Under the pieces are notes generated by a model, which ran no database searches, was not told where the DNA came from, and saw only the letters and a list, made by a program, of their open reading frames with translations. From positions 1 to 22,947 of the IMG/VR virus record IMGVR_UViG_3300005095_000127: DNA of 22,947 nt; one strand, 5' to 3'. Source of the stretch: a virus. The translations under genes were made by a program, and so were the position numbers. This document shows positions 18,099-21,934 of this stretch, piece by piece (the first letter of the stretch is position 1; the number at the start of each line of letters is the position of its first letter).

Positions 18099-18877
18099 GG
18101 CAGCACCTCCACGTCGGTCACGTCACCCGCCGGGATCACTCCCGACGACTGCTGATCGTACCATGCCAGCGATCCGGGCTCGGGCTGGTGATAGCCGCCT
18201 GATCTGGGAGGCTTGGGGGCGAAAAGCCCCTGGTAGCCGTTGTCGATCGAGTGATTGACCTTCTGGACGAAGGCATCGGGATCGGCATCGTGCTGTTGCC
18301 TGAGCCGTTCGATGGTGATCGGCTTGATGGGTTTGCCGATCTGTTTGCGGTATTCGATCCAGTTGCGGAGCGGTTCGGGATAGTGGACTTCTTTTTTTTG
18401 TTTGTTTTTTTTCTTTTGTGACGGTTCAATACTAAGTGACGGTTCCCTATATACTGTTGCCTGGGTGCCCGCAGGTAGACTTTGGCTACCCGTTTGGGTG
18501 CCCGCTCGTGGACTTTGGCTCCCTCGATTTGGGTGCCCGCTCGTGGACTTTGGCTCTGCCTCATCCTCGAAAAATCCGGCGAAAATCTCGTCAAGTTTTT
18601 GGAGGTTTTCGGCGGGGTAGAGCAGGTAGATATTGGAGTATCTGCCTCCCTGTTTTTTGGCGCGGTAGCGTTTGCGGATCACCCCTTTGGCTTCGAGTTC
18701 CGATAGGTTGCGCACGACGGTGGTGCGGCTGAGTTTTGTTTTGTCGATGAGGGTCTGCTGATGAGGGTAGCATACGCCGTCGTCGTTGGCGTTGTCGGCA
18801 AGTGCCAGCATGATGAGGGTCTGGTTGGCGGTCAGTGCCGCGTCATTGAAAACGTCGTTGATCAGTTTGATGCTCAT
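18095..18877 (-). CDS. Replication initiator, lambda O-like organisation
   Basis: A 260-aa protein. ATG 18877 is chosen because GGGAG lies upstream and the previous gene stops 1 nt away; the open frame extends further without a start signal. Residues 1-88 form a winged helix of the HTH_36 type (NDAALTANQTLIMLALADNAN ... HQQTLIDKTKLSRTTVVRNLSELEAKGVIRK). Residues 110-165 are low complexity and carry the iterons and a lysine run at DNA level. Residues about 168-220 (LRNWIEYRKQIGKPI ... SIDNGYQGLF) match the C-terminal region of phage replisome organisers. It should bind the internal iterons and recruit the host helicase, directly or through a loader. Confidence 0.8.
   Translation of the reverse strand: MSIKLINDVFNDAALTANQTLIMLALADNANDDGVCYPHQQTLIDKTKLSRTTVVRNLSELEAKGVIRKRYRAKKQGGRYSNIYLLYPAENLQKLDEIFAGFFEDEAEPKSTSGHPNRGSQSPRAGTQTGSQSLPAGTQATVYREPSLSIEPSQKKKNKQKKEVHYPEPLRNWIEYRKQIGKPIKPITIERLRQQHDADPDAFVQKVNHSIDNGYQGLFAPKPPRSGGYHQPEPGSLAWYDQQSSGVIPAGDVTDVEVLP
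18389..18445. other. AT-rich unwinding region with a 10-bp direct repeat, part of the likely origin
   Basis: Within the initiator gene, 18389-18418 on the plus strand is almost pure T with a few C and G (A-rich on the coding strand, encoding a lysine run). Beside it GTGACGGTTC occurs twice, at 18418-18427 and 18436-18445, 18 bp apart. The tract lies 3' of the iterons in the gene's direction, the same order as in the lambda origin (iterons, then A/T-rich tract). It probably melts when the initiator binds. Confidence 0.6.
18462..18555. repeat. Three 26-bp iterons inside the initiator gene (replication origin)
   Basis: Copies lie at 18462-18487, 18495-18520 and 18530-18555. Consensus on the plus strand is TGGGTGCCCGC followed by 3-4 variable bases and GACTTTGGCT. 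Copies two and three are identical and copy one differs at three or four bases. Starts are 33 and 35 bp apart. Because 35 is not a multiple of three, the copies are read in two different frames, so their conservation cannot come from the protein and points to DNA-level selection. Confidence 0.75.
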
Positions 18878-19334: not shown

Positions 19335-19500
19335 CGTCGCCCTCCATCATCATCATCAGTTCTGCGATACTTCCGATCAGATACTCCCCGCGAAAGACCG
19401 CATAGCCGCTCCGACTGGTGCTCACGACATAGACGCCGTCCGCGAGTGTCGCATGGACGTACAGTCCTCGGCGCCTGGCCGCGCGTATCAGCCCATGCAT
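19327..19500 (-). CDS. 57-aa early protein, unknown
   Basis: A small ORF with an excellent ribosome site (GGGAGG, 6 nt before ATG 19500). It overlaps the end of the CII-like gene by 13 bp and the start of the 151-aa gene by 8 bp. The N-terminus is basic (HGLIRAARRRGLYVHATL) and the middle looks like beta strands (GVYVVSTSRSGYAVFRGEYLIGS). The C-terminus (ELMMMMEGDDA) is acidic. No family is recognised. Tight coupling on both sides argues that it is real. Confidence 0.62.
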   Translation of the reverse strand: MHGLIRAARRRGLYVHATLADGVYVVSTSRSGYAVFRGEYLIGSIAELMMMMEGDDA

Positions 19501-19994
19501 GACGCACCTCCCGTCGCGGCGCCTATCTCCCGATCCGCCATACGGATCACATCTTCGTACTTGTCCCGCGCTTCGATCGCTTCTTTGCGGATCCGCCTGA
19601 GCTCGTCCACGTCGAGGTGATCGTCTGTAAGCGCGTCCTTCATCGCGTGGAACACGTCGGCAGCCTCCAGCATCGCCTGATCGGCGAGATCACCGGGATC
19701 GATCCTAACCGGAGCGGTCTCCATCGGCTCCAGCCGGTAGCCGTACTCCCGCACCCGCGCATCGAAAAACACCCGACGCGCCGGATCGTCGAGGGCGTGG
19801 AGCAGGCGTTCGCGCTGGGCGTCGTTGAGAGCGCGTTCGGAGTTGTGATTGAGCAGAGTGGAGAGCTGGATTCGGGCATTTGGTCCGCGCAGGCCGATCG
19901 CGTCGGCCAGGTGGCCGCGATCGAGGTGGTGGCGACGGTTGAAGTCATCGACCGCCGCGGTCAGAGCGAGATAGAAAGATACAGGTTTTCGCAT
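19488..19994 (-). CDS. Putative CII-like phage regulator, first gene of the leftward operon
   Basis: A 168-aa protein. I start it at ATG 19994 (MRKPVSFYLALTAAVDDF) because GGGAGG lies about 10 nt upstream; an open frame from further upstream would run into the structured leader. Residues 1-95 resemble the HTH domain of phage CII/CP76-type regulators: HLADAIGLRGPNARIQLSTLLN followed by LNDAQRERLLHALDD. The second half is helical and charged (DDHLDVDELRRIRKEAIEARDKYEDV), likely for oligomerisation. Being first after the lytic promoter suggests an early decision or activator role. Its ribosome site can be covered by a 10-bp RNA stem. The family call is moderate. Confidence 0.55.
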   Translation of the reverse strand: MRKPVSFYLALTAAVDDFNRRHHLDRGHLADAIGLRGPNARIQLSTLLNHNSERALNDAQRERLLHALDDPARRVFFDARVREYGYRLEPMETAPVRIDPGDLADQAMLEAADVFHAMKDALTDDHLDVDELRRIRKEAIEARDKYEDVIRMADREIGAATGGASCMG

Positions 19995-20003
19995 GGCAGT
20001 TGA

Positions 20004-20111
20004 GCCTCCCAGCTCAGCAGATACGACAGCACTCTGATCTGCCGCCCGGCCGCGCTGGGAGGCGAAAACGGCAGGCAGCAGGTCAGAGCACTGTCCGGGG
20101 AGGCGGCAGAT
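20004..20111 (-). promoter_or_regulatory. Interlocking RNA stems masking the first ribosome site (possible switch)
   Basis: In the leftward leader RNA, 20094-20074 pairs with 20046-20026 as a 12-bp plus 8-bp stem with one mismatch; three of its pairs are G-U, which exist only in the minus-strand RNA. In its loop, GCCTCCCAGC (20063-20054) is perfectly complementary to GCTGGGAGGC (20013-20004), which contains the GGGAGG ribosome site of the CII-like gene. The two stems interlock as a pseudoknot or exclude each other. A third option pairs ATCTGCCGCC (20111-20102) perfectly with GGCGGCAGAT (20046-20037), destroying the long stem. Confidence 0.6.
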
Positions 20112-20112
20112 A

Positions 20113-20125
20113 TGATATAATATCA
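20113..20125. promoter_or_regulatory. TGATATAATATCA palindrome, possible extended -10 on the plus strand
   Basis: A 13-bp perfect palindrome with 6-bp arms. On the plus strand it reads TGATATAAT, an extended -10 element, with no good -35 box. It could start an antisense transcript to the PL leader that continues into the membrane HIRAN gene, or it may be a protein-binding site. Confidence 0.3.
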
Positions 20126-20187
20126 CCGCACCTCAGTGTGTGCGGAAGAGCGGCGATCCGCCAAGATACAGACCGCTCTTCCGGTGA
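20123..20187 (-). ncRNA. Three-way-junction element in the leftward leader RNA
   Basis: Four contiguous complementary blocks fit together without spare junction bases. Outer pairs are TCACC (minus 20187-20183) with GGTGA (20127-20123). The first arm is GGAAGAGCGG (20182-20173) with CCGCTCTTCC (20153-20144), 10 bp perfect. The second arm is GCAC (20143-20140) with GTGC (20131-20128), with an 8-nt loop. It lies about 50 nt into the transcript from PL. The placement resembles put sites of HK022 or nut sites of lambda; no sequence identity to those is claimed. Confidence 0.5.
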
Positions 20188-20240
20188 CATGACCGATAAA
20201 CAGACACGATGGACACAAAAAGAAAGCGTCCATGTTTGGA

Positions 20241-20270
20241 AGTATAGACAAAATGTATATGCTTTGTCAA
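20241..20270 (-). promoter_or_regulatory. PL: leftward lytic promoter
   Basis: On the minus strand, TTGACA (20270-20265), an 18-bp spacer and TATACT (20246-20241). Transcription should start near 20234 and run through the leader into the CII-like gene and the whole lytic block. Its spacer holds the operator. The unit is nearly identical to PR 1.66 kb away in opposite orientation. Confidence 0.8.
20247..20268. promoter_or_regulatory. OL: repressor operator within PL
   Basis: A 22-bp site, GACAAA - 10 bp - TTTGTC, lying exactly across the PL spacer and overlapping the -35 box, where a bound repressor would block polymerase. The same half-sites recur at OR. A possible plus-strand promoter for the HIRAN-like gene (TTGGAA 20236-20241, 16 bp, TATGCT 20258-20263) also overlaps it, so the repressor might control both directions. 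Confidence 0.75.
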
Positions 20271-20283
20271 GTATGGAGAAAAT

Positions 20284-20745
20284 ATGGAAGGAAAATCACA
20301 AACGAACTGGAGCATCCTGACGCTGCTCACCGTCGCGGCGTGGGTGTGGATATGGCTTAGCTCCCCGGGTGTGGCGTGGACGCTGCTCATCATTGGGATC
20401 GTCGGGTTCGTTGCGTATTGGTGGTTCGTGCCGAACAAAGAGGAAGTTTTCGATATCGAGATCGTCGGTGAGTACTACGACAACGACGACGGCACAAGCC
20501 GCCAGGAGATCATCACCCGCGCAAAAGTCGGCGATCCGGTGACCCTGTCATTTTACACATACCACGGGGAGCCAGCCTGCGCGGTCAAGACGGCCGACGG
20601 ACAGATCGGCCACCTGCCGAGAGACATCGCCGACGAGATGCTACAGGAAGTCGCCAGCGCAGACGATGTCACCGCCACCATCACAGACATCTATCGCAAC
20701 GACCTCGGCACGCTGAACGTCGCCATCCGCATTACCACAAAATAA
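20284..20745 (+). CDS. Membrane-anchored HIRAN-like protein in the immunity region
   Basis: A 153-aa protein; GGAG lies 5 nt before ATG 20284. Two hydrophobic segments (about residues 10-25 and 31-48, the latter ending WWFVP) form a hairpin anchor, leaving the rest in the cytoplasm by the positive-inside rule (uncertain). Residues about 57-150 resemble a HIRAN domain: FDIEIVGEYY, then KVGDPVTL, ACAVKTADGQIGHLPRDIAD, then TATITDIY. HIRAN domains bind DNA 3' ends in helicases such as HLTF. A membrane-tethered copy between OL and the repressor is unusual. It is followed 11 bp later by a lipoprotein gene. Lysogen-expressed superinfection exclusion or defence is inferred from location. Confidence 0.65.
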   Translation: MEGKSQTNWSILTLLTVAAWVWIWLSSPGVAWTLLIIGIVGFVAYWWFVPNKEEVFDIEIVGEYYDNDDGTSRQEIITRAKVGDPVTLSFYTYHGEPACAVKTADGQIGHLPRDIADEMLQEVASADDVTATITDIYRNDLGTLNVAIRITTK

Positions 20746-20756
20746 GGAGCAACACA

Positions 20757-21227
20757 ATGAAATACCTTCCGGAACTTCTGGCCGCCATCATCCTCGCCGG
20801 GTGCGGAGGCACCACGACGACGGTCATCAACGGCGATGCACCCATGCCGCCAGACGAGAATCTCACCTGCTGCATCGACGACATCAACGCACGCTTCCCG
20901 CAAAACGAGCACGGTCACTACGGAGACGGTGTGATCTTCGGATCAGAAAAGATATGCAAAGAATGGGTGGTATTCAACACGGAAACGAACATGACGGTCA
21001 GGATAGACTTCGAATCAAGGGGATACTACTTCTATGATGACACACTTGACCCTGATTATGAGTATGGTGTTTCGACTGACGGGCGATCAGTAGAGACAAG
21101 CATGCACGGGACATTCACCATCACGAAGTTCCTGCCGCACCACCGATGGGACAACACCGGTACCAAAAAGGTCAACTGCTACGAGATCGACGGTGCTGGA
21201 TACCCGGCCATGATCTGCCCGTGGTAG
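20757..21227 (+). CDS. Lipoprotein in the immunity region (lysogenic conversion candidate)
   Basis: A 156-aa protein with AAGGAG 8 nt before the ATG. A very short signal peptide ends in the lipobox LAGC with Cys16, so the mature part is anchored as a lipoprotein. The mature domain has about six cysteines (CC pair, IC, NC, IC) suited to disulphides, and aromatic-rich beta segments (SRGYYFYDDTLDPDYEYG). No family recognised. It stops 1 bp from the stop of the convergent repressor gene, with no terminator between. An envelope lipoprotein expressed from a prophage commonly changes surface properties or blocks phage entry; that role is inferred. Confidence 0.6.
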   Translation: MKYLPELLAAIILAGCGGTTTTVINGDAPMPPDENLTCCIDDINARFPQNEHGHYGDGVIFGSEKICKEWVVFNTETNMTVRIDFESRGYYFYDDTLDPDYEYGVSTDGRSVETSMHGTFTITKFLPHHRWDNTGTKKVNCYEIDGAGYPAMICPW

Positions 21228-21904: not shown

Positions 21905-21934
21905 TTGACAAATACTATACATTTTGTCTATAAT
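21905..21934 (+). promoter_or_regulatory. PR: rightward lytic promoter
   Basis: TTGACA (21905-21910), 18-bp spacer, TATAAT (21929-21934): consensus in both boxes. Transcription should start near 21941 and run rightward through a leader of about 590 nt to the gene at 22531. Across the aligned 29 bp it differs from PL only at three or four positions in the spacer. Confidence 0.85.
21907..21928. promoter_or_regulatory. OR: repressor operator within PR
   Basis: A 22-bp site, GACAAA - 10 bp (central TATA) - TTTGTC, filling the PR spacer and overlapping its -35 box. It lies 28-49 bp upstream of the repressor start, so the same protein can repress PR and control its own gene. Confidence 0.8.

Follow-up and report, generated by a model that had tools for sequence, protein, structure and literature searches.

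The described systems closest to the leader analysed here are the C4 RNA of phages P1 and P7 (RF01695) and the CI RNA of phage P4. C4 is released from a longer transcript by processing, and a ribosome site is occluded by its b' loop (PMC5320573), and P4 CI RNA pairs both upstream and downstream of itself, in the seqA/seqB/seqC scheme, which leads to termination (PMC4825925). In the annotation of the P1 record, the upstream targets a1/b1 are followed by the C4 RNA and then, downstream, by a2/b2, the b2 target directly preceding icd; these targets measure 7-8 nt, and the promoter carries a C1 operator. IsrK of Gifsy-1 is a prophage leader RNA acting on the translation of the downstream gene in its own transcript (PMC4825925), an arrangement similar to the one proposed below, but its effect on translation is activating, and the separate Rfam model that describes it had no match here. 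The SAM-II and preQ1-II riboswitches are H-type pseudoknots that sequester the Shine-Dalgarno sequence (SD).

We analysed a virus record of 22,947 bases (the window, i.e. the whole stretch of DNA studied), in which an operon leader resembles these systems in several respects. As with C4 of P1 and P7, a leader RNA precedes the first gene of the operon, loop segments are complementary to the SD (b2 in P1) and, in most of the relatives, to a site upstream (a1, b1), and the C1-controlled promoter of P1 has a counterpart in a promoter, PL, that is apparently CI-controlled. C4, which acts in trans and measures about 77 nt, differs, however, in having three stems, a' and b' in separate loops and RNase P processing, whereas the present leaders have one long hairpin with one loop of 12-33 nt, and the gene behind it is CII-like rather than icd or ant. 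With P4 CI RNA they share a loop complementary to one upstream and one downstream target in the same leader, ahead of replication genes, but the structure is different and most of the present phages use separate loop parts for each partner. Pairing of a hairpin loop with a downstream SD, here a candidate pairing derived from sequence, is also found in SAM-II and preQ1-II; unlike these, the present leaders have no conserved ligand-binding core and their loop letters vary freely. No Rfam family matched the leaders, neither a known riboswitch aptamer nor a thermometer, which does not favour the temperature or ligand sensor considered in the initial annotation, and a literature search retrieved no paper on such a leader. 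The RF01695 model, which matches P1 at 68.8 and P4 at 74.9 bits, found no counterpart in the 11 phage records up to an E value of 10, ruling out membership of C4. The element thus follows the same plan and is C4-like on paper, but lies outside that family.

The operon of the window is defined by the following features:

20241..20270, minus strand: PL promoter, TTGACA-18-TATACT (consensus scan, 11/12 matches)
20243..20259, minus strand: operator-like TATACATTTTGTCTATA inside PL (exact 17-nt match, 0 expected by chance)
19488..19994, minus strand: CII-like regulator of 168 aa, first gene of the PL operon (phrog_101, E 1.4e-8)

PL is a strong promoter that fires, through a leader of about 240 nt, into a minus-strand operon in which the CII-like gene is followed by a replication O-like gene and, further down, by terminase and structural genes. 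That a CII-like gene comes first after PL had been proposed from the sequence before and agrees with the phrog_101 match; the SNW-1 CII protein is 34% identical to the product (E 3e-11), and Pfam PF06892 (CP76) matches it weakly (18.2 bits, below the cut-off of 26). The palindrome-like TATACATTTTGTCTATA has an identical 17-nt copy at 21916-21932 on the plus strand, within an opposite promoter (21905-21934), and the two promoters bearing it point away from the cI region, where the gene for a CI-like repressor lies at 21879-21229. TATACATTTTGTCTATA is presumably a CI binding site and, because both promoters contain it, both are probably controlled by the CI-like repressor. The nearest annotated relatives of the window's CI and CII belong to phages of Nitratiruptor and Sulfurimonas, suggesting a host of this kind.

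Other elements of this region were noted in passing. Three 29-nt direct repeats (two identical, spacing 33 and 35 nt) at 18460-18556, inside the O-like gene, are iteron-like and a possible replication origin. Between PL and cI, two plus-strand genes, candidates for expression in the prophage, encode a membrane protein with a weak HIRAN-like domain (20284-20745), a relative of which adjoins the leader in the related phage L019 (E 6e-14), and a lipoprotein-like protein (20757-21227).

The leader folds more stably than shuffled sequences (z -5.8 for 256 nt and -4.3 for 126 nt) and contains the following elements:

20144..20182, minus strand: leader hairpin 1, GGAAGAGCGG...CCGCTCTTCC (minimum free energy (MFE) fold of the window)
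20102..20111, minus strand: ATCTGCCGCC, complement of 20046-20037 in the 3' arm of the long hairpin (perfect pairing, not conserved)
20098..20104, minus strand: upstream anti-SD copy GCCTCCC, paired with 20010-20004 in the nested MFE fold
20074..20095, minus strand: 5' arm of the long hairpin S (folding and coordinate recheck)
20054..20063, minus strand: 3' part of the loop (B), GCCTCCCAGC, perfect complement of the SD region (shuffle, permutation, 10-mer count)
20025..20046, minus strand: 3' arm of S (folding and coordinate recheck)
20004..20013, minus strand: B', GCTGGGAGGC, SD region of the cII-like gene with the SD GGGAGG at 20010-20005 (same tests as B)
20002..20015, minus strand: local hairpin GAGC-UGGGAG-GCUC with the SD in its loop (local folds)

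The 21-nt stem with three G-U pairs that had been described in the initial annotation was reproduced in its coordinates and pairs: 20094-20074 and 20046-20026 form 17 Watson-Crick pairs, 3 G-U pairs and 1 C.A opposition, and one further pair, 20095/20025, can be added. No U-tract follows this hairpin, and a terminator reading was therefore rejected. Its loop carries, as had likewise been pointed out, a perfect 10-nt complement of the ribosome site, GCCTCCCAGC (20063-20054) against GCTGGGAGGC (20013-20004), GGGAGG included. Chance is excluded as an explanation, as the 10-mer occurs at these two places only in 22.9 kb (0.02 expected) and shuffled loops reach 10 bp in about 0.05% of cases. The ordinary MFE fold hides the SD as well, since GCCTCCC (20104-20098) closes over the long hairpin, and small hairpins with the SD in the loop, similar to that of the window, were seen in the local folds of L005, L011, SNW-1, L023 and L024. 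A third pairing, which had been regarded as competing with the long stem, is indeed a perfect 10-bp match in the window (ATCTGCCGCC, 20111-20102, with GGCGGCAGAT, 20046-20037), but it is private to the window; other leaders reach at most 3-5 nt, and a role as a conserved switch was ruled out.

Leaders of 10 other phages were found before homologous CII-like genes, L023 and L024 being near copies in the leader stretch. L003 came from a CI search of viral contigs (61% identity), SNW-1 and NrS-1 from a CII search of phage records, L005, L019, L022, L023, L024 and L026 from alignment-based CII scans, and L011 from a DNA pattern and, independently, from the CII scan. CII identity to the window is about 26-34% in the four compared, and hosts, where named, are deep-vent Campylobacterota. 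Protein scans with the window CII alone, or with CI or SNW-1 CII in genome contigs, gave no match; DNA-pattern matches to stem and box in L009, L010, L014 and L015 lie inside coding sequence and were dismissed as chance. A Helicobacter jaachi prophage and CAM-P21, which are CI-related with no annotated CII next to CI, were left out. All relatives have a promoter-like site with the cII-like gene as the first gene behind it, and in 11/11 leaders the ribosome site is immediately preceded by a long hairpin. NrS-3, NrS-4 and L020 have CII-like genes without this leader position, and the hairpin was not found there. L021, with a distant CII-like gene, has a strong upstream hairpin near 2120-2222 (z -4.4) with no clear loop-to-SD partner and is possibly an outlier of the leader family.

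The complementarity of loop and start region recurs in these leaders with other letters. A loop complementary to the SD of the next gene is a trait of C4; here, perfect helices of 9-11 nt with the SD or first codons were found in 6/11 leaders: 10 bp in the window (GCCTCCCAGC/GCTGGGAGGC), 11 bp in L003 (TCCCCTCCCAG/CTGGGAGGGGA) and L005 (CCCCCACGGAT/ATCCGTGGGGG), 10 bp in L011 (CCCCAGATCG/CGATCTGGGG) and L019 (TGAACTCCTT/AAGGAGTTCA) and 9 bp in NrS-1 (AACGGGTGT/ACACCCGTT), where the target is codons 3-5 and not the SD. The remaining helices measure 6 bp (SNW-1, L023, L024) or 5 bp (L022, L026), and each of these alone is not significant or marginal. The letters are unrelated between phages, as a comparison of the L005 and L019 helices illustrates. 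Across 10 leaders, the helices between loop and own start region sum to 83 bp, compared to a mean of 54 bp for mismatched pairs, and 83 bp was reached by 1 of 300,000 permuted deals, a result resting mainly on six phages. Since the letters differ and yet each loop fits its own start region best, the pairing covaries; covariation in related phages, which the initial annotation had named as a check, was thus found for the loop-to-SD pairing, and the long stem is kept as well. In the six phages, the duplex amounts to -13 to -23 kcal/mol compared to -2 to -10 for local folds of the start region.

The leaders also share a second loop interaction, A:A', which is absent from the initial annotation. 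In 8/11 leaders, a 6-7 nt segment (A) ending 0-3 nt before the hairpin pairs with the 5' part of the loop (A'), as does the second target upstream of the RNA in C4. The A/A' pairs are TACCAAC/GTTGGTA in SNW-1, ATCAAAC/GTTTGAT in L022, CCAACC/GGTTGG in L023 and L024, TCCAAC/GTTGGA in L026, TTCACT/AGTGAA in L005, AACTCC/GGAGTT in L011 and TAAACC/GGTTTA in L003. Permutation of upstream A against loop A' gave 52 vs 35.6 (6/300,000); the pattern was seen first and tested after, and varying the stretch left the result standing (about 2 in 1000 in the least favourable case). L026, fetched after the rule had been written down, shows the predicted pairing. The window, NrS-1 and L019 have no upstream A; their 5' loop part pairs with the first codons instead, with shuffle p values of 0.0007 for NrS-1 and 0.03 for L019 (TTGGTTTT/AAAACCAA). 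In the window, the partners are:

20062..20069, minus strand: 5' part of the loop (A'), GTTTTCGC, complement of cII-like codons 1-4 (8 bp, shuffle p 0.003)
19985..19992, minus strand: GCGAAAAC at codons 1-4, partner of 20069-20062 (pairing)

The strand on which these structures act was judged from their imperfect pairs. The stems of 10 leaders contain 8 G-U pairs and 1 A.C, with the reservation that these stems had been chosen by folding minus-strand RNA. As the plus strand likewise folds well (z -3.5), this count is better evidence than fold stability for selection on the transcript, i.e. the minus-strand RNA, which it favours in line with the initial annotation. The good folding of the plus strand would also suit an inverted repeat acting as DNA (operator or origin) or an antisense transcript of the opposite strand, with the RNA pairings incidental; we regard this as very improbable, given the 8 to 1 ratio, the lack of a lambda OOP-like promoter on the plus strand at 19900-20284 (sigma-70 consensus only) and the covariation of loop and SD, which DNA palindromes leave unexplained.

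Two further parts of the leader are shared by some of the phages. The upper stem CAATGCCGGCC...GGYCGGCAGGCATTG is near-identical in L003, L005 and L011 while the lower stem and the loop vary, which suggests a part recognised by a protein or nuclease. The same three leaders share a box with the window:

20127..20138, minus strand: box CACTGAGGTGCG, shared with L003, L005 and L011

CACYGAGGTGCG is exact in all four and keeps its distance from the cII start, at -136 to -146 in L003, L005 and L011; three leaders also allow the box to be read as TEVR, with third-position changes of the silent type.

In phage lambda, the order is PL-nutL-rIII-N. The present succession of promoter, conserved box, long hairpin, SD and first gene is the same, and the hairpin might accordingly be an RNase III processing site in an antitermination leader, its loop complementarity being secondary. 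We consider this improbable: it does not account for the covariation of loop and start region, the box is missing in 7/11 leaders, and of all the leaders only that of the window showed a boxA-like word, CGCTCTTCC.

We think it fairly likely that the PL leader is a self-antisense control element of the CII-like gene, the first gene of the lytic operon. Hairpin, complementarity and covariation are present across 11 phages; that the pairing occurs in cells and represses the CII-like gene we infer from its having been kept while the letters changed, which makes control of that gene's translation probable. The hairpin, which is long, in most cases bulged and placed shortly before the ribosome site, would display the complement of the SD and/or the start-codon region in its loop, and the loop would pair with the start region of its own mRNA and block initiation. 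A block of the first gene could also lower downstream transcription by polarity, as is known for P4. The second interaction, of the 5' loop part with the upstream segment or the first codons, probably serves folding order or target specificity. Of the earlier proposal that translation is controlled by switching between folds, the stem and the loop-SD pairing stand, as they covary, but the third pairing and the temperature or ligand sensor do not.

Such a pairing may be intramolecular, giving a pseudoknot in cis, or may join a processed hairpin RNA to a second transcript; we slightly favour the former. The linkers of an H-type pseudoknot are L1 10, L2 7 and L3 11 nt in the window; by linker length, the fold is feasible in the window and in NrS-1 and tight in L005, L011 and L019, where L2+L3 is 7-10 nt, short across a stem of 13-22 bp. 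From geometry, A:A' and the full stem are unlikely to coexist in one molecule, so that A:A' would either form transiently at an early stage or connect two molecules.

One alternative is a switch in cis, in which early hairpins A:A' and B:B', hiding the SD, alternate with S, in which the SD is freed or only locally folded, the choice depending on a protein, on ribosomes moving along leader codons or on the order of folding. The steric difficulty of combining A:A' with S, A lying 0-3 nt upstream of the 5' arm in 8 phages, is consistent with it, as is the GAGGTG of the box in L005 and L011, which precedes by 7 nt a 6-codon ORF (MITK[LP]H) whose end lies shortly before A. Most leaders have no small ORF, however, the window has no upstream A, and S is far more stable than A:A' in the 8 phages with an upstream A (-19 to -36 vs -4 to -8 kcal/mol), which would make the alternative fold transient; we judge such a switch rather unlikely.

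Another alternative is an immunity or feedback RNA acting in trans, of the C4 and P4 CI kind. Here the hairpin, once excised, would build up and bind the upstream and SD targets on other PL transcripts, so that the operon is turned off in lysogens or at rising copy number. The order of upstream target, hairpin RNA and SD target is that annotated in P1, where the c4 promoter has a C1 operator; overlapping loop letters (TTGG) of L023, L024 and L026 fit both an upstream and a downstream copy, as in seqA/seqB/seqC of P4; most stems have a 2-4 nt bulge on the 3' side; and the loop letters diverge from phage to phage, as specificity elements would be expected to do. Against it, none of the 11 records has a C4 match, no processing signal was found in the leaders, and the leader RNA may be scarce in lysogens because PL appears CI-controlled. 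Moreover, the loop order 5'-A'-B-3' suits sequential hairpins in cis (A:A', then B:B') and is a poor fit to one continuous duplex with the upstream target. Action in trans is thus possible but somewhat doubtful.

For the self-antisense element as a whole, we see an even chance that it represents an undescribed RNA family of temperate phages (named hosts Sulfurimonas and Nitratiruptor), in which the loop of one long hairpin pairs with the start region and also with a second site, either flanking the hairpin or within the first codons, as a switch of the whole operon that converges on C4 and P4 CI RNA but is structurally separate, its loop being fast-diverging and phage-specific. Since SNW-1 and NrS-1 come from cultured hosts, control by the leader is testable. 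If this reading is correct, the lytic operon of these phages would be controlled by RNA at its first translated gene, besides the CI-like repressor, through an element whose pairing logic persists although its letters are completely replaced. The leaders would then represent an independent second solution to the task of C4 RNA in P1 and P4, and a clean system in which to distinguish action in cis, in trans or both in such leaders.
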